From a bacterium (lineage in GTDB: Bacteria > Patescibacteriota > Minisyncoccia > UBA6257 > 2-01-FULL-56-20): 47,014 nucleotides of DNA. Where the stretch lies: contig DAIDAM010000006.1 of NCBI GenBank assembly GCA_027310625.1, forward strand, positions 1 through 47,014, given 5' to 3'. A program made the position numbers and the translations under genes. Position 1 is the first letter of the stretch, and each line of letters opens with the position of its first letter. Positions 25,897 through 44,949 of this stretch are shown one piece after another. The notes below the pieces were generated by a model. That model did no database searches. It was given only the letters and a program-made list of their open reading frames with translations, and had not been told where the DNA came from.

Positions 25897-28425
25897 CTAT
25901 TTCTCAACGCCTCGGATTGTCTCGTATAGCTCCTGCTGGCGTTTTTGGAGCGAGGCGTCAAAGATAATGCGGTATTCAAAGTTTTTGTTTGCCTGCTGGA
26001 ACTCCTTAAAACCGATTTCTTTGGCAAACACTTCATTAAACAGGTTTTCAATTTTGCCTTTGTATTCCTGCTTGTTTTTTTCGTAAGCCGCTTTTTCTTT
26101 GTTGGCTTTTACCTCAACCACTAAAAATCTGCCCTTTGTCGTTTCTACCAGAAAATCTGGGAAGTAGCGGGCAATCCGTTTGTTTTCTGGGCTGTAATAC
26201 TCAAAATAAAAATCGTTATGGGTGGGGTCAGTAGCTCCGCCTGTAAAATAAACATCAACAATCGCCTCGTCTTTATCCAGCACATCCCGCAAATACTTAA
26301 ACAGGTCTTTTTCGTCCGTGCTGTCAAAGTTGTATGGGTTGATGTGAAAACCAATGCGGCTTTTGCCGTGGGCTTTCTCCATCTGCTCCCGTGAGACAAC
26401 GAGGATGTTTTTGCCCTGCTCAATGCTTATCTTGAAGGGATACATCTTTGCCAGCTCAATTTCTTCCTCAACCGCCTCGGTCTTTTCTTGATACTGATAA
26501 GCGTTTGCCAAAATGCCACTGATAATAAACGGCACGAGTGCCATATTTTCATTTACCTTTTTTACCAGTTCTTTGCGGGACAAGCCATTTTTCTCCAAAA
26601 CTTCCTCAACATCCAAACAGGATAAGTGAGTGTAGCGATTGATAAGCTCAACAATTTCATAAAAAGTAAGATTGCCGTTTTCTTTAAGCTCCCGTGTCGC
26701 TTGTGCTCTGCGGTATCCCGCTTGCCCCTCGGTCAAAAATATCCCGCCTTCGCCCACGAGCGATTTGTAATCATCAACTTTGAAGGTTTTTACATCAATT
26801 TTGATGTTATCCAAATCCTGATTTTGAATAGCCAGTATTTCTTTGAGCAACTTCGTAACTTTGAGCTTTTTCTTTTTCTCAATTTTAAGCGTATGCTCAA
26901 AGCTCTTTGTTTCTTGTGCTGACAGCTCCTCAATCGTGGTAGCAAAGTTGTTTTTCAATTCCTTATCCAATATGCGGTAGTTCTCCTCTGACAAGAAAAT
27001 TGAGCCGAGCGTTGTGTTATCGCCAATGCTCCGCAAACAACGGGTGGACGATTGAAGCACGAAAATTGCACTCTTGGGCTTTCGGTAAAGGGCACAGGCA
27101 ACAAGCGAGCGGCAATTCCACCCTTCCGTGCCTTTGCCAACAAGCAAGATAAACTGCTTTTTGCTATCGGCGGTATCACAATTCAAAAACTCCTCTTTGT
27201 TTTCTTCCGCCTCGGTGTGATATTCCAGCACCTTATCCAAAGAAATATCCTGCTCCGCCAAAACCTTCTCAAGTTTTGGTCTTAACTCTTTTCGCAGGTC
27301 ATCAATGTTCGCCGCATAAAAAGCAATTTTCGGCAATCGGCTTTCAACCCTATTTTCGCCGTATTCGTCCCAGAACTTCTCCACGACATCTTGGATAAAC
27401 TTGCCACTTCTTACCTGTGAGTATTCAAAAAATCTTACCTGCTTCAAAATGCCTTTTTCTATGCCTTGCTTCAATCCGAAGTGATAAACGACATCGGCAA
27501 TCATTTTGTTTGCCACATACGGCGTCCCCGTAAGGTTTATGACGCCCACAAGCGGAGTGTTGCCGTGCAGATAGTTGATGGTTTGCCTCGTCTTTTTCAA
27601 AGTGCCCTCAAGCGTTTTGCCGTAAGAGTGATGGGCTTCATCAACGAACACAACGAGATTTGAAAGCCCACGGATTGCGGCGAGGCGGCGGTTTTCAATT
27701 TCTTTTTTCTCCAGCTCGCCCCAATCGCCGAAAAGCCGTTTTGTCCCGTTTTCGGTTCGCCTCGTTTTCAAAATGATTTTCTGCGAGTTAGAAATGATGA
27801 TATTGTAGTTGCCAATCGGCGAGAGTGGTGTTTCTGGACTTTCCAGATAGTGATACTTAACATTGAGCAAAATGTTCTGATATTCTTTCGGGACAACCCG
27901 TGTGTAATCAAAAGTTTTAACCTCTTTCAAGCTCTCAATTATGGTGGTGTCGGGAGCGAATACTAAAGCGTTTTTGGCGAAGCGTTTGTCGTCTGGATGA
28001 TAAAAAGACAACACGAAATCGTAAGTTGCCATCACTGCCATTAAAATCGTTTTGCCCGCTCCCATCGTAAGGGCATACACTTGATTTGGATAATCCGAGA
28101 CGCCGAACCTGTCCGCCATCAGCTCCTCAATCTTTTCTTTGTTGCCGAGCAAATCAAACGCTTCGTCTCGTGGGACGCCAAGCCCCAAGAGCATATCCTT
28201 TTCGTTGTCAAAAAGGGACTTAAAAACTTCCAGCGAGGATTTATTGCCGACAATTTCTTTGAGATAGATATAGGTTTCTAACGCCTCAACCTGCGGCTTA
28301 TGCAAAAAGCCCACTCGCTTAATGTGGGTCAAAATGTTTTGCGTCTCCCGCTCAACGCCCTTATAGTTATCGCTTCGCCAATCGGCGACTTTCTGCTGGA
28401 TGTGTTGTAAAAAAGGATTTTCCAT
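25897..28425 (-). CDS. res: Type III restriction enzyme, Res subunit
   Basis: ATP-dependent translocase and endonuclease that cleaves unmethylated DNA with Mod, 842 residues. It is a superfamily 2 helicase with Walker A MGAGKT (about 121-126), motif II DEAHHSYGKT (about 262), and the late helicase segment LVGKGTEGWNCRSLVACAL with a motif VI-like stretch SSTRCLRSIG. The C-terminal nuclease is the PD-(D/E)XK type: FPDFLVETTKGRFLVVEVKANK near residue 770. All key residues are present. It starts 4 bp after the mod stop, so the two are co-transcribed leftwards. Confidence 0.93.
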   Translation of the reverse strand: MENPFLQHIQQKVADWRSDNYKGVERETQNILTHIKRVGFLHKPQVEALETYIYLKEIVGNKSSLEVFKSLFDNEKDMLLGLGVPRDEAFDLLGNKEKIEELMADRFGVSDYPNQVYALTMGAGKTILMAVMATYDFVLSFYHPDDKRFAKNALVFAPDTTIIESLKEVKTFDYTRVVPKEYQNILLNVKYHYLESPETPLSPIGNYNIIISNSQKIILKTRRTENGTKRLFGDWGELEKKEIENRRLAAIRGLSNLVVFVDEAHHSYGKTLEGTLKKTRQTINYLHGNTPLVGVINLTGTPYVANKMIADVVYHFGLKQGIEKGILKQVRFFEYSQVRSGKFIQDVVEKFWDEYGENRVESRLPKIAFYAANIDDLRKELRPKLEKVLAEQDISLDKVLEYHTEAEENKEEFLNCDTADSKKQFILLVGKGTEGWNCRSLVACALYRKPKSAIFVLQSSTRCLRSIGDNTTLGSIFLSEENYRILDKELKNNFATTIEELSAQETKSFEHTLKIEKKKKLKVTKLLKEILAIQNQDLDNIKIDVKTFKVDDYKSLVGEGGIFLTEGQAGYRRAQATRELKENGNLTFYEIVELINRYTHLSCLDVEEVLEKNGLSRKELVKKVNENMALVPFIISGILANAYQYQEKTEAVEEEIELAKMYPFKISIEQGKNILVVSREQMEKAHGKSRIGFHINPYNFDSTDEKDLFKYLRDVLDKDEAIVDVYFTGGATDPTHNDFYFEYYSPENKRIARYFPDFLVETTKGRFLVVEVKANKEKAAYEKNKQEYKGKIENLFNEVFAKEIGFKEFQQANKNFEYRIIFDASLQKRQQELYETIRGVEK

Positions 28426-28428
28426 ACG

Positions 28429-30270
28429 CTATGCCGCAACCTTAAATGTCTCAAAGTATTCCTCGCCAAGCACATCAACGATTTTCACCGCAACCTTGTA
28501 TTCGCCCTTTTTCGGATACTCCCAGCTATACTTTGCTTTGATGAGTTCTTTCTTTGTCGGCAAATCCATAATCTCGGCGTTGAAAAGGTTGCCGTTGTAG
28601 TCAACATCAACCGCCACGCTGTCTATGATTTGCTTAAAGTCCATCACTTTGGCTTGGTGTTCTTTTTTGAGCACTTTGCCGTTTTCAACTTCCAGCTTTC
28701 TCATCAAAATCGGCGAGTAAAACTCTTTCAGTTCAACCGATAGCTTTTTATCTTTAGCTCTTACTTCAATCTTGGCTTCGGGCTTTTTCTTGAAAATAAG
28801 ATTTTTCTTGTCGGTCAAAATGTCTCTGATTTCAACCTTAACCCCCGACTTGTTTTCCTTTTTCAGAAAATCGGCAACATCCAGCTCAACGCCAGAAGCG
28901 ATAATCAAAACGCCTTCCTCATACACTGGCTCACCCGTCTTTGATTTTTTCTTTACCGAGAAGGTATCAATTTTATCCTCAATGCTCTTGAGCACTTGCC
29001 GTATATCCATTTTGTTGAGCACTCGGTTTATCGGCATTACTTTCACAAAATTGTTGTCCAAAACGCCATCAAAATAGCTCCGCTTTATCGGCTCTACACC
29101 ATACATCTCCATCACGATTTCTTTTGCCTCAAGTTCGTTTTTGAAAATGTCGTAATCGTTCACATTGTAGATTTTGAAACCGAAAGACATTTTGCTTTTT
29201 GCCTCTTTCATTTCTTTTTCGGACAGAAACCACGCAGAAGTATCTTTTTTACCAGAAACTTGGGCTTCAATGATTTGATTAAGCCGTTTGGTAGAGATTT
29301 GAACTGCACTTAAGTTAATGTCGCAAGCAATCCAGTGTCTGCCGAGTTTTTGAGCAACTGCTGGAGTTGTGCCTGCACCAACAAAGAAATCGGCAACCAA
29401 ATCACCTTCGTTTGATGACGCTTTGATAATTCGTGTTAGCAGGTTTTCATTTTTTTGAGTTGGATAATCTTTCTTTTCGCCACTAAAACTCATAATTTGT
29501 ATGCTATCCATTTTATCCAGCTCGTTGCAGTTCCAAGTATCCTCAATCGCATATCCTTCTCCTTCTGGCTTCGCCCCGTCTCGTCTGGCGTAATCTTTCG
29601 GATAGGATATGTATTCCTTGTTGAAAACGAAGTGATTTTTGTTTTTGGCATAGTAAAGAATGTTGTCGTGGTTTCTTATCCAGTTCTCCGTTGCCGTCTT
29701 ATATCCAGAAACCCACCCTATCCGCCAGATGATTTCTCGTAAAAAGTTTTCCTCGCCAAAAACTTCATCCATTATCGTTTTCAGATAATGAACTTTTTGA
29801 GGGTCAAGATGAACATAAATGCTTCCGCTATCCGCAAGCAGTTCTCGCATAAGCAGGAGACGCTCATACATAAACTGCAAATACTCGTCTCGTCTCCAAA
29901 TATCTGTATATTGTTTTTCTTCCAGCAAACCTTGTGGTTCACCCTCAACTTTTTCGCCCCGTAGTTTTACTTTTCTTACATACTCGGCTTCGCTGGCAAA
30001 AGGTGGGTCAATGTAAATCAAATCAATCTTGCCTCGGTATTCTTTGAGGAGATGGGCTAAAACTTGGAGATTGTCGCCCCAGAAAAGTTTATTGAAATCT
30101 TTTGAGTTTTTGTCGCCATAGACCTCTTTCTCTTGGGCTGGATAGTATTCCACTTTGTCCAAAGGTCTTTTGCCAACCCATTGGAGCATTGGTCTGCCTT
30201 TGGCTTTTTCAATATCAAAACGATAACTTTTAGCTTTCGCTACGGATTGTAATTCTAATTTTCTGCTCAT
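28429..30270 (-). CDS. mod: Type III DNA methyltransferase, Mod subunit
   Basis: Recognises the site and methylates adenine, protecting host DNA and guiding Res. 613 residues from ATG 30270 (MSRKLELQSVAKAKSYRF); the upstream in-frame extension is leader sequence. Motif IV is YIDPPFASEAEYV (about 86-98), and the SAM-binding motif I is VADFFVGAGTTPAVAQKLGR (about residue 295). Motif IV precedes motif I, which is the beta class. The long C-terminal part after about residue 330 is the Res-interaction region. Upstream lies a structured leader (30271-30463) that may control translation. Confidence 0.93.
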   Translation of the reverse strand: MSRKLELQSVAKAKSYRFDIEKAKGRPMLQWVGKRPLDKVEYYPAQEKEVYGDKNSKDFNKLFWGDNLQVLAHLLKEYRGKIDLIYIDPPFASEAEYVRKVKLRGEKVEGEPQGLLEEKQYTDIWRRDEYLQFMYERLLLMRELLADSGSIYVHLDPQKVHYLKTIMDEVFGEENFLREIIWRIGWVSGYKTATENWIRNHDNILYYAKNKNHFVFNKEYISYPKDYARRDGAKPEGEGYAIEDTWNCNELDKMDSIQIMSFSGEKKDYPTQKNENLLTRIIKASSNEGDLVADFFVGAGTTPAVAQKLGRHWIACDINLSAVQISTKRLNQIIEAQVSGKKDTSAWFLSEKEMKEAKSKMSFGFKIYNVNDYDIFKNELEAKEIVMEMYGVEPIKRSYFDGVLDNNFVKVMPINRVLNKMDIRQVLKSIEDKIDTFSVKKKSKTGEPVYEEGVLIIASGVELDVADFLKKENKSGVKVEIRDILTDKKNLIFKKKPEAKIEVRAKDKKLSVELKEFYSPILMRKLEVENGKVLKKEHQAKVMDFKQIIDSVAVDVDYNGNLFNAEIMDLPTKKELIKAKYSWEYPKKGEYKVAVKIVDVLGEEYFETFKVAA

Positions 30271-30463
30271 AATGTGGTTGGGATTTTGTGCTCGTGGAAA
30301 CAGAAAGCTCCCCACGAGCGATGACCTTGCGGCCACCCAGCAGTATTCCTACTACTGACCCAACCACGAGTGCTCAATGAGGAGCTTACTATCGTGGTTG
30401 GGAATTTGATTGCCACTACTTAAAATAAGTGTTGGGCAATTACTAAATTGTAAAAATTTTATG
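30271..30463 (-). ncRNA. Structured leader of mod with alternative pairings
   Basis: In the mod transcript three segments can compete. A is CCCAACCACGA (30402-30392), B is TCGTGGTTGGG (30369-30359), and C is ATCCCAACCACA (30284-30273), the last ending 2 bases before the mod ATG. B pairs perfectly with A over 11 bp, or with C over about 9 bp. Between B and C is a further hairpin with stem GCTCGTGG/CCACGAGC (30319-30312 and 30297-30290). This A-B-C layout resembles attenuators and riboswitch expression platforms. No ligand-type motif is recognised. Confidence 0.55.
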
Positions 30464-37544: not shown

Positions 37545-39527
37545 ATGAAGCAAGAGCAAAACAAAATTAAATACTTTATCTATGCCAGAAAGTCGTCCGA
37601 GAGCGAAGATAGACAGGTGCAATCTATTGACGACCAAACAAATCGGCTGAAAAAACTTGCGGCAGATTTAAGTTTGGATATTAAAAAAATCTATACCGAA
37701 GCGAAGTCGGCAAAGAAGCCAAACAATCGCCCCATCTTTGACGAGATGATACAACGAATTGAAAACGGCGAAGCGGGCGGGATTTTGTGCTGGCAGATAA
37801 ATCGCCTCTCCCGTAATCCGATTGATAGCGGTAAGTTAAGCTGGCTTTTACAGCGAGGAGTGCTCAAATCAATCCAGACGATAGACCGCCAATATCTCCC
37901 AGAGGACAATGTGCTTTTATTCAGCGTTGAAAGCGGCGTTGCCAATCAATACATTTTAGATTTAAGCAAAAACACCAAGAGGGGTATGCTTTCAAAGCTG
38001 GAGAAGGGCTGGCAAACAGGAGTAGCACCGCTCGGCTATCTCAACGACAAAGAAAATAAAATCATCATCAAAGACCCAGAGCGTTTTAATCTTGTCCGCA
38101 AGATGTGGGATTTAATGCTTACTGGCAACTATACCCCGCCAAAGATTTTGGATATGGCGAATAAAGAATGGGGCTTTAAGACAAGAAAGTTTAAGAGGAT
38201 GGGCGGCAACGAATTATCACGAAGCGGTATTTACAAGATTTTTACCAGCTTGTTTTACGCAGGAATTATAGAAAATGCAGGAGTTCAGTATGAGGGGCAA
38301 CACGAGCGAATGATTACGCTTGAGGAGTATGACCGAGTGCAAATGCTTCTTGGTAGAAAGGGTAAGCCAAGACCAAAACACCACGAGTTTGCTTTTACTG
38401 GCTCAATGCGATGTGGCGTATGCAACTGCCTTTACACCGCCGAGACAAAGCAGAAGCTCCTCAAATCTGGCGAGATACGAAATCACACTTATTATCACTG
38501 CACGAGAAAAACCACCAAGATTAAGTGCAACCAGCGAAAAAATATCCCAGTGGACGATTTGGAAGTGATGATTGAAAAAGAAATTGAAAAATACACCATC
38601 CTGCCAGAGTTCTTGCAGTGGGCATTGGAAGGTTTGAATAAAAAGAACGATACCGAAATTGAGGATAGGACAAAAGTTTATGAAATGCGGCATAAAAATC
38701 TGGTGGAAACTCAAAAAGAGCTGGATGAGCTTACAAAAATGAGATACCGCCAACTCATTGATGATGAAACCTTTATCAAAGAAAAAAATATACTCCAAAG
38801 CAAAATCGCCCAAATGAAAGAAAATCTGCGGGAGACGGAGACACGAGCCGAGAAGTGGCTGGAGCTTACCGAAAAAACTTTTGCATTTGCTACTTATGCA
38901 CGAGCCGCTTTCCTGCGAGCTAACAAAATGGGCAAAGCAGGGTTAGAACTGAAGAAGGAGATTTTGCTGGCTCTTGGAAAAGTGCCGATAATTAAAGACC
39001 TAAAGCTCTTTATTGAACCGAATGAGTGGTTTGCGGAGATAGAAAATAGCTATCCTGCCCTTGAGCAGAAATACTTAAGGTTAGAACCGACAAAAATGCC
39101 GATAAATAAAGCAAAAACAGAAGCTCTCGCTTCTGTTCGTGCACACTGGCTCCGCAGGCAGGACTCGAACCTGCAACCTTGTCCTTACATTTGTCCCAGA
39201 GTTTCCTTTGGGGATGGACTATATCATCACCCTCTGCAGGGGCGAGGCGCTTCCCGTGGCACAAAAATTTTTGTGTGCTCGGTACTCCTTTTCAGGATAG
39301 TCTCTACACCTTCTCCGCTTTTATGCCGGAGCTTGGCTCGGGGTTGCCCTCCGCTTGCGCGGTCGGGGTTCTCCGATTTCACCTCGTGTTTCAACCCGAA
39401 TTACTTCGGGAAGCTGCGTTTAGTTCCACAGGGACCCGCTCTACCGTTGAGCTACTGCGGAATAGAAAAATTTTACCAATTAATCGGGAAAAATCAAACG
39501 CCCTACCCGCCCCGGGCGTGGTTTTGA
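37545..39527 (+). CDS. Large serine recombinase (integrase of the element)
   Basis: Catalyses integration and excision by a serine-phosphodiester mechanism. The N-terminal resolvase domain has YARKSSESEDRQ with catalytic Ser17, and ILCWQINRLSRNPIDSGKL. A recombinase domain follows (GVAPLGYLNDKENK ... LSRSGIYKIFTSLFYAG). The zinc ribbon is MRCGVCNCLYTAE with YYHCTRK, and a coiled coil spans about 385-470. Native sequence ends near residue 525; the frame then runs antisense through a terminator, tRNA-Asn and its intron to a stop at 39527. WLRRQDSNLQP is the classic tRNA-antisense tail, so the true C-terminus is uncertain. Confidence 0.88.
   Translation: MKQEQNKIKYFIYARKSSESEDRQVQSIDDQTNRLKKLAADLSLDIKKIYTEAKSAKKPNNRPIFDEMIQRIENGEAGGILCWQINRLSRNPIDSGKLSWLLQRGVLKSIQTIDRQYLPEDNVLLFSVESGVANQYILDLSKNTKRGMLSKLEKGWQTGVAPLGYLNDKENKIIIKDPERFNLVRKMWDLMLTGNYTPPKILDMANKEWGFKTRKFKRMGGNELSRSGIYKIFTSLFYAGIIENAGVQYEGQHERMITLEEYDRVQMLLGRKGKPRPKHHEFAFTGSMRCGVCNCLYTAETKQKLLKSGEIRNHTYYHCTRKTTKIKCNQRKNIPVDDLEVMIEKEIEKYTILPEFLQWALEGLNKKNDTEIEDRTKVYEMRHKNLVETQKELDELTKMRYRQLIDDETFIKEKNILQSKIAQMKENLRETETRAEKWLELTEKTFAFATYARAAFLRANKMGKAGLELKKEILLALGKVPIIKDLKLFIEPNEWFAEIENSYPALEQKYLRLEPTKMPINKAKTEALASVRAHWLRRQDSNLQPCPYICPRVSFGDGLYHHPLQGRGASRGTKIFVCSVLLFRIVSTPSPLLCRSLARGCPPLARSGFSDFTSCFNPNYFGKLRLVPQGPALPLSYCGIEKFYQLIGKNQTPYPPRAWF
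39112..39136 (-). terminator. Terminator of tRNA-Asn, inside the recombinase frame
   Basis: On the minus strand ACAGAAGC-GAGA-GCTTCTGT is an 8-bp perfect hairpin followed by five or six T, starting 10 bases downstream of the tRNA CCA. Confidence 0.85.
39147..39461 (-). tRNA. tRNA-Asn(GUU) interrupted by a group I intron
   Basis: The 5' exon is 39461-39428 and the 3' exon 39187-39147. Spliced, the acceptor stem is TCCGCAG/CTGCGGA with discriminator G and encoded CCA. The D arm is GCTCAACGGTAGAGC. The anticodon loop is CTGTTAA with anticodon GTT, and the T arm is GCAGG-TTCGAGT-CCTGC. The intron lies between anticodon positions 35 and 36. The anticodon stem is GGTCC/GGACA, with a G-A mismatch at 27-43. 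The recombinase frame runs into its 3' end, so the element probably used this gene as its target. Confidence 0.9.
39188..39427 (-). ncRNA. Group I self-splicing intron in tRNA-Asn
   Basis: The 240-nt intron begins GGAACTAAACGCAG and ends with G. P1 forms between exon CTGT and intron GCAG, with the required U-G pair at the splice site. The core elements are readable on the minus strand: CCGAGCCAAGCTC (Q/R region, about 39342-39330), AAGGTGTAGAGACTA (S region, 39312-39298) and GATATAGTCC (39226-39217), where GACTA and TAGTC form P7. This resembles the IC3 introns of bacterial tRNA genes. It encodes no homing endonuclease. Confidence 0.9.
39470..39497 (-). promoter_or_regulatory. Promoter of tRNA-Asn
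   Basis: On the minus strand the -35 TTGATT (39497-39492) and -10 TAAAAT (39475-39470) have a 16-base spacer, ending 8 bases before the mature tRNA 5' end. Confidence 0.6.
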
Positions 39528-39552: not shown

Positions 39553-40587
39553 ATGGAGACCGTTTTTGAAAAAGACATGAAACCCAAAAGAAAAGTCAGC
39601 GCTAATTTAGGTCGCACTCAGTATTTTCAAAGGGAGCGATTATATAAAGAGATTAGAAAACGTCTTGGTCCAGTCAGGCGTTGCCCTTTCTATAACGGTA
39701 AAAAATATCCTCAATTTGATAATAAAAGTCACAATGTTTTAAATCCGAAATTTCTAAACCCAGCCGTTCCTATTGAAGAGTTTGATTTTGCAAAAAAATC
39801 AAACGACAAATGGGGTCTCCAAGCTTACTGCAGAGTTTGCTACAAAGCTTATAGAGATGCTCGAATAGGAAAAGCTCGTGAGACTTGGATTCGAAAGAGC
39901 GGTGCTCCCATGACAGATGACAAAATCAGGAGCTGGTATCGCAAAAACGTAGGTCCGACAATGGCATGTTCGGTATGTAAACGCGAACTAGACCCTAAAA
40001 ATTTTGCCATTTCCAGAAGCATGGAAAAGGGACTCCATAATGAATGTTTTGATTGTCAGGCAGCACGAGGAGGTTCTGTACGAGAACAGGAGTGGCTCTC
40101 GGACGGAGATTGGTCATCTTGGACAAAGACCGTGTTGAAAATGAGAAAAATGAAGAAAGTGAGGTGTGCGGGTTGGTCTCGTTCTGTGACAATGGGTTGG
40201 TGCCTTAAGTTTGGTAACGGTAAAAATATGCACGCTGACCACTATATTCCACTGCGGGCTGGCGGAATACATGATGTAAAAAATTTCCAGCCGCCCTGCG
40301 ATAGTTGTAATAGTAAGAAAAGCGATCAAATCGATCAGAAAACACCAATAAGTAAAATTATCAAACTCGTAGGCAATCCGTATAAAAATGTTATTAAATC
40401 GAAAGATTCAGTTTCCACGATTGAACGGAAATTGAAAGCCGCATTGCTCAAACGCATAGCTAACCTTGTTGACTCCAGTAAATACCTTGAGGCAATTCGT
40501 GCAAAAAAGAAAGAAGTTAATGGACAGTGGGATATAAACCGTGTCTATAAAAAAGGTGTTGAATGGCTAGACAGAAACCTTTCTTAG
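39553..40587 (+). CDS. HNH endonuclease, probable restriction partner of the LexA-methyltransferase
   Basis: A 344-residue protein. The N-terminal half has zinc-type cysteine pairs (YCRVCYKAY, ACSVCKREL, ECFDCQAAR). The nuclease is a classical HNH: GKNMHADHYIPLRAGGIHDV with the His-Asp-His start, Asn in VKNFQPP, and PCDSCNSKKSDQ with its Cys-x-x-Cys. It is AT-rich. ATG 39577 (MKPKRKVSANLGR) is an alternative start. The 3' end overlaps by 21 bp the 3' end of the convergent LexA-methyltransferase gene. An HNH gene paired with an orphan methyltransferase is a common type II restriction layout, which is why I infer restriction; a homing function is the alternative. Confidence 0.75.
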   Translation: METVFEKDMKPKRKVSANLGRTQYFQRERLYKEIRKRLGPVRRCPFYNGKKYPQFDNKSHNVLNPKFLNPAVPIEEFDFAKKSNDKWGLQAYCRVCYKAYRDARIGKARETWIRKSGAPMTDDKIRSWYRKNVGPTMACSVCKRELDPKNFAISRSMEKGLHNECFDCQAARGGSVREQEWLSDGDWSSWTKTVLKMRKMKKVRCAGWSRSVTMGWCLKFGNGKNMHADHYIPLRAGGIHDVKNFQPPCDSCNSKKSDQIDQKTPISKIIKLVGNPYKNVIKSKDSVSTIERKLKAALLKRIANLVDSSKYLEAIRAKKKEVNGQWDINRVYKKGVEWLDRNLS

Positions 40588-42213
40588 ACGTCCATGGCTG
40601 ATCTTTTCTGCCATAGGGTTAATATCAATTAAAGTAGATTTCCTATTCAGAAGCGAAGCGGCAACTCCCGTAGTTCCACTACCAGCTACTGGATCTAAAA
40701 TCCAATCTCCTTCACCCGAAGAAAGTTGTACTAATCTTTTCAAAAGTTCCAAAGGTTTTTGGGTTGGATATAATCTCTCATCCTTCGTAGTTCTTGTGAT
40801 ATAAGAGATATCATCCCATAGGTTTGAGAGAGGTTTGCCCTTACATTCGTGTTTATATAATTTCTTGTAAAGCATGGCTTTATTGTCACCATTCTTTGGT
40901 TTTGCGAAATGAATTCTATTTAATTTCATTAATTTTTCCAATTGATTTTTTGATATTTTCCAACCGTAGGGAGCTTCATAAACAATTCCATTTCTCTCTA
41001 TTTTATAGAAATGACCCCTCCGTGTTTTATCGTGTTTAATAGAGCCTAGGGCATAAAAACCAACCTCGTCTTTATTTTTGTACGAATTCTCAAAATAGTA
41101 CTGATCAAGCGGAACGTATAAAACATTGAATTTTGAACCATTGTCACTAGCTTTGTAGATAATATCAACCACAGAGCCGAGTTTGTTTTTAACCGTGTTC
41201 TTTCCGTGAGCTTTTTTCCAAAATATAGGTTCTACTTTTTTAAAATGTTTTGATAAAACCTTTTGCGGGATAAAAGAGAGTTCCGCGCTTATATGGAAGA
41301 ACAAGGAGCCGTTTTTATTAAGTTTTTCTTTGCAAAGGTATATTAAGCGGTCAAGCCATTGCTCGTATTGTCCGTCTTCCCATGTATCTTTAAAAATGTG
41401 GTCACTATCGTCAGCGGCGTATTTGTAATTTCTGTTTGAGTTAAAGGGAGGATCAAGATAGATTGTTGCATACTTGCGCTCAAGTTGTTGTAAAATCTGT
41501 AAATTGTCGCCTAAATAAAACTCGCACCCCTTTATAATCCATTCCGGCTTGGATGGTTTCTTTCTTTCTTGAGATTTTTTTATAGGCGCCTCTATGGTGT
41601 CTGTTGTTGAGAAATAATCACTTTTAATAACGTCTAGTACGATTCCTTTTATTTCAATCTTTCTGTCATTGTTTCTTATAATTATCGGTTCGAAATTCTT
41701 ATTCGCCGGCTGTAAACGAATTTGACCGCGCTCCTTATAAAATTTTTTCAGAGTTGCTTCGTAATTGTCAATTAAAGCCACTACTTTTTGCCCGTTTTCA
41801 GCTGTTTCTTGATGACGCACCAAAACGATATCGCCATCATTTATATTTTCCTCGATCATGCTGTTGCCTATGACGCGGAGCGCATAAATTTCGGACGATG
41901 GCGGTATCTTATTTTTAGGGACCGCTATGGTTTCGCTTGGTACGTCGAATAAAGTTATAGGTGAGCCGGCGGCGATTGTACCGAGCAGAGGAATTTTAAC
42001 CATTGGCGCCGAATCGAGAATTTCTATCCCGCGGCGCTGATTTTTGTTTAATCGTACAAAGCCGCCCTCTTCAAGTTTTCGCAGGTGTTCGTGAATAGTT
42101 CCGACCGCGCGTTTGAGCCCTTTAGATATTTCCGGAATGGAAGGGGAGTATCCTCGTTTTTTTGAGTACGACTTTACGAAGTCAAAAATTTCTTTCTGTT
42201 TTTTTGTGAGCAT
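40567..42213 (-). CDS. LexA repressor fused to a DNA methyltransferase
   Basis: A 548-residue fusion. Residues 1-65 are the LexA winged helix (LTKKQKEIFDFVKSYSKKRG to GFVRLNKNQRRGIEIL). Residues 72-200 are the S24 domain, with the Ala82-Gly83 cleavage site in LLGTIAAGSPI, Ser118 in VIGNSMIEE and Lys156 in ATLKKF, the complete self-cleavage apparatus. After a charged linker, residues 225-548 are an amino-methyltransferase of the beta class, with motif IV YLDPPFNSNRNY (Asp254) and motif I LDPVAGSGTTGVAA (about 506-519). Expected behaviour, by analogy with LexA, is self-repression relieved by RecA-stimulated cleavage, which would separate the DNA-binding domain from the methylase. Confidence 0.9.
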   Translation of the reverse strand: MLTKKQKEIFDFVKSYSKKRGYSPSIPEISKGLKRAVGTIHEHLRKLEEGGFVRLNKNQRRGIEILDSAPMVKIPLLGTIAAGSPITLFDVPSETIAVPKNKIPPSSEIYALRVIGNSMIEENINDGDIVLVRHQETAENGQKVVALIDNYEATLKKFYKERGQIRLQPANKNFEPIIIRNNDRKIEIKGIVLDVIKSDYFSTTDTIEAPIKKSQERKKPSKPEWIIKGCEFYLGDNLQILQQLERKYATIYLDPPFNSNRNYKYAADDSDHIFKDTWEDGQYEQWLDRLIYLCKEKLNKNGSLFFHISAELSFIPQKVLSKHFKKVEPIFWKKAHGKNTVKNKLGSVVDIIYKASDNGSKFNVLYVPLDQYYFENSYKNKDEVGFYALGSIKHDKTRRGHFYKIERNGIVYEAPYGWKISKNQLEKLMKLNRIHFAKPKNGDNKAMLYKKLYKHECKGKPLSNLWDDISYITRTTKDERLYPTQKPLELLKRLVQLSSGEGDWILDPVAGSGTTGVAASLLNRKSTLIDINPMAEKISHGRLRKVSV

Positions 42214-42321
42214 AACTTCATTATAACATCCGACCCGAAAGAAACCCGAAAGTTATGCACAGTTTGTTAAACTGGCAATTTGAAAGTTGTGAAAGATTAA
42301 GATAAAATTGAAAGCACTTCA
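42214..42321. promoter_or_regulatory. Divergent control region of the LexA-methyltransferase locus
   Basis: For the fusion gene, TATAAT (42225-42220) ends 7 bases before the ATG, implying a leaderless or very short-leader mRNA. Two direct repeats of ACCCGAAAG (42233-42241, 42244-42252), 11 bp apart, cover its -35 zone. Further on is the palindrome CAGTTT-GTT-AAACTG (42260-42274). For the protease gene, -35 TTGAAA (42280-42285) and -10 TAAAAT (42303-42308) have a 17-base spacer. The repeats or the palindrome are the likely LexA-type operators; neither matches the Escherichia or Bacillus consensus. Confidence 0.6.
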
Positions 42322-44309: not shown

Positions 44310-44549
44310 ATGACTCAAAAAGTTTTGAAAGTCGGTTCGTCTGCTGCCGTCACCATTCCCAAAAAATCTTTGGAGGAACTGAACTTGCGTCCCGGAGACA
44401 GAGTTATTGTCGAGGTTGATAAAAAAACCCGCTCCGTCTCTATTCGTCCTTCAAAAGGGACATCAAGCCGCGAGCGGCGAATTGCCGAGCTCACCTATAA
44501 CTTTATTGAGCGTTACCGCAGCGATTTAGAAGCACTGGCGAAAAAGTAA
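44310..44549 (+). CDS. AbrB/SpoVT-type antitoxin
   Basis: A 79-residue protein. The N-terminal swapped-hairpin domain reads KVLKVGSSAAVTIPKKSLEELNLRPGDRVIVEVD, the standard AbrB/MazE-type fold that binds its own promoter. The C-terminal helix (RRIAELTYNFIERYRSDLEALAKK) is the part expected to wrap the toxin. It is followed after 4 bp by a Doc-type toxin gene. Confidence 0.85.
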   Translation: MTQKVLKVGSSAAVTIPKKSLEELNLRPGDRVIVEVDKKTRSVSIRPSKGTSSRERRIAELTYNFIERYRSDLEALAKK

Positions 44550-44553
44550 GCTC

Positions 44554-44949
44554 GTGAAGTACCTATCGGCGACAGAAATTCTCCAGATTCATTCTATGCT
44601 CGTTGATGAGACGGGAGGTATCCATGGCATACGTGACCGGCGCGCCATTTTAAGCCTGGAAAACGCACCGAAACAAAATGTTTTCTGGAAAGAACTTTAT
44701 CCCAATGTCTTTGAAAAAGCTGCCGTGTATGCAAGAGACATCATTATGAATCACCCATTCGTTGACGGAAACAAGCGGACTGGCATGACTGTCGCTTCTG
44801 TGTTTCTTGAAGACAACGGCTACAATATTGAAACAAAGAGGGGAGAAATAGAGAAATTCGCCTTAAAAATAATCAGAGGAAAACTTGAGATAAAAGCAAT
44901 CGCCGCCTGGTTCGAAAATAACTCGCGGAAAACAAAGAGTAAAGCTTAG
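44554..44949 (+). CDS. doc: Doc/Fic-type toxin
   Basis: A 131-residue protein with GTG start. The Fic motif is HPFVDGNKRTGMT (HxFx[D/E]GNKR), with the typical Doc N-terminus YLSATEILQIHSMLVDETGG and IRDRRAILSLENAP. In phage P1, Doc phosphorylates EF-Tu and blocks translation; other Fic proteins transfer AMP. The antitoxin here is AbrB-like rather than Phd, a known variation. All catalytic residues are present, so it should be active. The stop overlaps the first base of the next open frame. Confidence 0.88.
   Translation: MKYLSATEILQIHSMLVDETGGIHGIRDRRAILSLENAPKQNVFWKELYPNVFEKAAVYARDIIMNHPFVDGNKRTGMTVASVFLEDNGYNIETKRGEIEKFALKIIRGKLEIKAIAAWFENNSRKTKSKA

Follow-up and report, generated by a model that had tools for sequence, protein, structure and literature searches.

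LexA heads on exchangeable DNA methyltransferases suggest that patescibacterial restriction systems sense the damage they cause

How do restriction–modification (R-M) systems spare their own host when methylation lags? So far this long-standing question has found its answers in controller (C) proteins, in methylases that repress their own genes and, among Type I systems, in restriction alleviation by proteolysis. LexA is a repressor that is destroyed upon DNA breakage, and a modification methylase shields the host from its own DNA-cutting enzyme. A methylase with its own break sensor would give direct feedback from autoimmune damage to protection. Here we describe a gene that joins a LexA to a DNA methyltransferase in a member of the Patescibacteriota (lineage 2-01-FULL-56-20; assembly GCA_027310625.1, contig DAIDAM010000006.1). 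The stretch analysed, called the window below, comprises positions 1 to 47,014 of that contig. The features of the fusion protein are as follows.

40567–42213, minus strand: LexA–DNA methyltransferase fusion gene, 548 amino acids, single intact frame
42028–42210, minus strand: LexA winged-helix DNA-binding domain, residues 2–62 (Pfam)
42088–42090, minus strand: codon of recognition-helix residue Glu42, of the class paired with TTTCGG half-sites
41965–41970, minus strand: Ala82-Gly83 scissile bond (from the sequence)
41638–41991, minus strand: Peptidase S24 domain, residues 75–192 (Pfam; the model resembles LexA C-terminal domains)
41860–41862, minus strand: Ser118
41746–41748, minus strand: Lys156
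41563–41616, minus strand: linker, residues 200–217, predicted disordered (predicted local distance difference test, pLDDT, below 50)
40600–41466, minus strand: N6_N4 (beta-class) DNA methyltransferase domain, residues 250–538 (Pfam and fold match)
41443–41454, minus strand: DPPF, residues 254–257 (from the sequence)
40669–40695, minus strand: DPVAGSGTT, from residue 507 (from the sequence)

An earlier note on this DNA had described a LexA and a methyltransferase in one polypeptide. There is indeed one intact open reading frame (ORF), which runs uninterrupted for 548 codons from an ATG at 42213 to a stop at 40567; the coordinates in the note were right and only its strand had to be corrected, to minus. 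Pfam finds LexA_DNA_bind (E 2e-12), Peptidase_S24 (3e-29) and N6_N4_Mtase (2e-32) in this order, each above its curated cut-off, and the NCBIfam model TIGR00498 ‘lexA’ is matched with 179 bits (cut-off 111). By sequence the protein therefore belongs to the LexA family, with a winged helix, an S24 domain, an Ala-Gly scissile bond and a Ser/Lys dyad, and this LexA appears to be cleavable. Ala82, Gly83, Ser118 and Lys156, which the note had named together with the winged helix, are invariant in all 82 aligned related heads (~56–77% identity). The two methyltransferase motifs it had read are also present; motif IV (DPPF) precedes motif I (DPxxGSGT) and the fold matches, as expected of a beta-class N6/N4 enzyme. 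In the predicted structure the winged helix is confident, the S24 domain matches LexA C-terminal domains (target template-modelling score, TM, ~0.8) and the methylase core matches M.BceJIV, a rotifer N4C methylase and MboIIA (target TM ~0.65–0.7). The middle of the methylase (~338–462), where the target-recognition part is expected, is of low confidence. The note's idea that self-cleavage would part repressor from enzyme does not fit the position of the bond: with the winged helix on one side of it and the S24 domain on the other, cleavage would not split LexA from the methylase. The predicted products are instead an 82-residue DNA-binding domain and an S24–methylase of 466 residues.

In order to determine how widespread the architecture is, we carried out a scan with the head alignment, using one genome per species. 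This gave 394 confirmed relatives, of which the best 80 loci were inspected. In 77 of these, which come from a contig collection independent of the near genomes, the head runs in-frame into a methylase; the exceptions are two stand-alone LexA proteins (L063 and L069) and one locus cut by a contig end. Of 41 near genomes, 8 or more also have the fusion. A phylum-wide sample of 380 genomes gave at least 20 with fusions of ~490–630 amino acids, the other matches there being mostly ordinary LexA of 200–250 amino acids. About 100 fusions were found in all, and nearly all records are Patescibacteria; those assigned to Ignavibacteria (L056) and Legionellaceae (L062) are on short contigs of metagenome-assembled genomes and may be mis-binned. 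An IMG/VR contig (L089) carries one fusion. No convincing LexA–methylase fusion came from the phage and plasmid collections: an Enterococcus plasmid match is a Type III Mod gene, and in a Marinitoga phage match the CI-like repressor and the methylase are separate genes. The latter locus (L147, phage MPV1, 1156–3411), with a CI-like S24 repressor gene followed directly by a separate DNA methylase gene, is an unfused analogue.

All 76 fusions scanned with Pfam have LexA_DNA_bind and S24, combined with N6_N4_Mtase in 74 and MT-A70 in 2. Further loci carry the same type of head on C5-cytosine methylases (L123, L127 and L128) and on D12 methylases (L120 and L132). The architecture, which could have been taken for a one-off, defines a widespread patescibacterial family whose methylase and restriction-enzyme partners can be exchanged. 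As the genome is a draft, an assembly error or frameshift might have joined two genes, for which the note had suggested looking at residues 200–225 and for relatives. Given the single open frame and the independent fusions in other assemblies, the chance of such an artefact is negligible.

We then asked what the head might control. The region upstream of the fusion gene contains three elements.

42220–42228, minus strand: putative extended −10 element TGTTATAAT, 6 nt before the ATG (from the sequence)
42235–42252, minus strand: operator, direct repeat CTTTCGGGTTT CTTTCGG with an 11-bp period (TTTC-N7-TTTC), just upstream of the −10 element
42253–42261, plus strand: DnaA-box-like TTATGCACA, abutting the operator (TTATCCACA in most relatives)

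The spacing between the −10 element and the ATG predicts a leaderless transcript. Upstream regions of the fusions contain two units of ~7–8 bp with an 11-bp period, placed against or over the −10 element, for example ACTTTCTATTTTCTTTCTATTATAAT or, in the window, ACTTTCGGGTTTCTTTCGGGTCGGATGTTATAATGAAGTTATG. In 75 of 82 fusion loci the 150 bp upstream contain an operator-type site, compared with 0.018 expected per 150 bp; upstream of 65 convergent restriction genes there was none. A motif-free search for repeats with at least 7 of 8 identical bases gave a period of 11 in 52 of 80 upstream regions; other periods gave 1–6 and shuffled sequences about 2. Among the seven loci lacking the strict pattern, two start too close to a contig end to judge, and the others have divergent tandem units by eye (L062, L072 and L084) or near-matches (L050 and L087). 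A palindromic LexA operator was considered and rejected: the dyad scan caught TATA-type dyads at the −10 region, and the direct repeat is the real signal.

The best indication that these sites are bound by the heads is the covariation of operator and protein. At residue 42, the middle of an H-x-H motif in the recognition helix, all 17 loci whose half-sites are CGG have E, Q or D, and all 60 whose half-sites are CTA or CGA have F, Y or H (Fisher p 2e-17, a value inflated by relatedness), so that this residue alone predicts the operator type in 77 of 77 loci. On a tree of the S24 part alone, with the DNA-binding domain left out, these traits switch about ten times. Four of four independent pairs on well-supported branches agree in residue 42 and operator, although four pairs cannot reach significance alone. 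Control of the methylase by its head through the promoter operator is thus strongly supported at the level of sequence. Some operators contain TCGA (ACTTTCGATTT..., as upstream of L033, L034, L039–L041 and L048), and in loci with a TCGA-type methylase, methylation of the operator is conceivable.

The element adjacent to the operator has a similar distribution. Of 80 fusions, 62 have TTATCCACA in the 200 bp upstream, compared with 0.022 per kb elsewhere in the same loci, usually 10–12 or 20–25 bp before the operator; it was found upstream of 0 of 65 restriction genes. In the window TTATNCACA occurs once in 47 kb, at the fusion promoter, and there are 26 copies in the whole genome. The ordinary stand-alone patescibacterial lexA genes examined (L131 and L133–L138) have no DnaA box upstream. 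DnaA may bind at the fusion promoter, and the presence of its box by most operators suggests an added tie of methylase synthesis to replication.

The 766-kb genome of the window is 97% complete, and in it the fusion is the only lexA match found. The operator occurs once within 2 mismatches, at the fusion's own gene, although weaker sites may exist. Operators at several DNA-repair genes, the mark of an SOS master regulator, were not seen within the same limit. RecA is present in this genome and in 38 of the 41 genomes searched. One operator and no other LexA point to a self-contained switch, and the head appears to control its own gene rather than to act as a visible SOS master regulator. The earlier note had proposed a direct link from methylation to SOS; the operator at the methylase promoter supports a link between the methylase gene and LexA control, while a branch of the host SOS regulon is not supported.

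The gene at the 3′ end of the fusion is its probable restriction partner. In the window it is a convergent HNH gene.

39553–40587, plus strand: HNH protein of 344 amino acids, probable restriction endonuclease partner (Pfam HNH, E 2e-7, and position)
40567–40587, no strand: 21 bp shared by the methylase and HNH genes at their 3′ ends (gene coordinates)

This arrangement is typical of the family: the downstream gene is convergent in 64 of 77 loci, and 53 of these 64 overlap the fusion by 4–26 bp. By Pfam, 73 neighbours include TaqI-type (18), BglII (5), MunI (2), MamI (2) and HindIII, AlwI and PvuII (1 each) enzymes as well as endonuclease VII, MutH and HNH types, the remainder being without a match. 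A methylase beside a restriction endonuclease, as in Type II R-M systems, is thus found across many loci of the family, and the HNH protein of the window stands where related loci have restriction enzymes and is a putative nuclease. No relatives of it were found among viral contigs. Restriction families are common to loci of differing head and operator class (e.g. clusters 1, 3, 6 and 13), which indicates that head and operator exchange as a unit relative to the methylase–restriction cargo. Two loci depart from the usual plan. L063 (5001–6384) has a stand-alone LexA of the fusion clade, 14 bp upstream of the gene for a 244-amino-acid protein without a Pfam match, possibly a LexA and nuclease pair with no methylase. 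In L070 (5001–8390) the head is on a protein of 1129 amino acids that extends well past the methylase, perhaps a combined methylase–restriction enzyme.

We propose, with a probability of roughly 0.6, that the fusion is an autorepressing methylase in which RecA-signalled self-cleavage gives a burst of methylase that limits self-restriction. The LexA head would bind the direct-repeat operator and repress synthesis of the fusion itself. When under-methylated host DNA is cut by the restriction enzyme, or other damage occurs, RecA filaments would form and stimulate cleavage at Ala82-Gly83; the winged helix would be lost and the operator freed. The S24–methylase fragment and newly made fusion would then raise methylation and limit further self-cutting. 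Type II R-M systems induce SOS during post-segregational killing or when their activities are unbalanced (PMC3874152), which provides a source for the signal. The restriction gene is in most loci convergent and overlapping with the 3′ end of the methylase gene, and it has no operator, so that the switch would act on modification only; read-through antisense transcription may lower restriction as well. The complete loop, in which breaks load RecA, the head is cleaved, methylase rises and self-cutting stops while the DnaA box ties methylase supply to replication, is a more tentative proposal that we place a little below even odds. Several points weigh against the proposed burst. Self-cleavage, repression and methylation by the fusion are all things we infer, and an intact head could be kept for reasons besides cleavage. 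In 13 of 77 loci the downstream gene runs in the same direction as the fusion, so that action on modification only is not universal; both genes may be derepressed jointly in these loci. In addition, the HNH partner in the window has weak similarity to known nucleases and few relatives.

The operator, its overlap with the promoter and the covariation with residue 42 could all be explained without cleavage. The head might then serve only to set methylase dosage by autorepression, as in M.SsoII-type methylases or C proteins, with S24 used for dimerization. Autorepressing methylases with an N-terminal helix-turn-helix (HTH) domain are known (PMC3874152), but dimerization alone does not require the scissile Ala-Gly and the catalytic Ser and Lys to be invariant in every head aligned, and we consider this explanation unlikely, though the most serious of the alternatives. 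A role in establishment has also to be considered. On entry into a new host there would be no repressor, so that methylase would be made first and at full rate, and damage related to entry would prolong this phase through cleavage. The module looks mobile, with one kind of head and many methylase and restriction partners across many lineages, and methylase-first timing follows automatically from autorepression; yet it is left unexplained why a break-sensitive repressor was kept over a simple HTH. As the principal explanation establishment is improbable, but it is compatible with the damage-triggered burst and both can act together. It is very unlikely that the head directs the methylase to DNA sites, methylating near operators or being held inactive there until cleavage frees the enzyme. 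Head and enzyme do form one chain with a linker predicted to be flexible. However, the single operator in the genome would make targeting relevant at most at the fusion's own promoter, and the presence of the head on chemically different methylases speaks against a shared steric mechanism.

The fusions share features with several known systems. Autorepression by methylases that carry an HTH domain at the N terminus has been described (PMC3874152), and methylase self-control is for this reason not new in principle. Like the M.SsoII and M.Ecl18kI type (PMC3874152), the fusion starts with a DNA-binding domain, and its promoter is overlapped by an operator. In contrast to that type, its N-terminal part is a whole LexA with the self-cleavage domain, found on beta-class and other methylases; the operator is an 11-bp direct repeat and the restriction gene is usually convergent, not divergent. 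With SOS LexA it shares the domains, the scissile bond and the Ser/Lys dyad, and its operator geometry is that of the GTTC-N7-GTTC LexA site of Alphaproteobacteria (PMC8565304, PMC9578287), but it is joined to a methylase and no regulon is seen, the single operator of the genome lying at the gene for the fusion. Direct-repeat LexA motifs arose several times, according to a passage in a paper citing Patescibacteria work (PMC7739468). The closest non-fused relatives are stand-alone patescibacterial LexA proteins, several of which have direct-repeat sites upstream; unlike the fusions they are ~200–250 amino acids long and lack a methylase, and the ordinary ones examined lack the DnaA box. C proteins likewise provide dedicated transcription control of one R-M module. 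They are separate small HTH proteins, whereas no such controller gene is used here, the control domain lying within the methylase chain and being potentially responsive to damage. In Type I restriction alleviation, restriction falls relative to modification after DNA damage, in EcoKI via ClpXP (PMC12707154); this acts on the restriction complex, whereas we propose derepressed modification in Type II systems.

A literature search found no published report of a LexA–methylase fusion, but it did not cover a 2017 SOS-network study of Patescibacteria, in which earlier notice is possible; a 2025 review on R-M biology has nothing about LexA. Relative to the papers searched, what is new is a self-cleaving LexA as control domain, exchangeable among methylase classes. 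These results suggest that patescibacterial restriction systems sense the damage they cause and answer with more protecting methylase. If the complete loop with its DnaA box holds, an R-M system would sense its own autoimmunity and the replication state of the cell. The family also presents LexA as a portable switch on a defence module, across several chemically different methylases.

The rest of the window contains other elements related to defence and mobility. A serine recombinase with a zinc ribbon (37545–39527, plus strand) adjoins the R-M module and might provide it with mobility. The strand opposite the C-terminal part of the recombinase ORF contains a Group I intron (39195–39496, minus strand; RF00028, 51 bits), and that part of the ORF resembles non-coding sequence; an intron-containing tRNA-His called by ARAGORN in the same region is doubtful. 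A second R-M locus (25897–30336, minus strand) encodes a Type III-like methylase (28429–30336) and a ResIII helicase (25897–28425). Finally, a MazE-type antitoxin followed by a Fic/Doc protein (44310–44949, plus strand) is a probable toxin–antitoxin pair.
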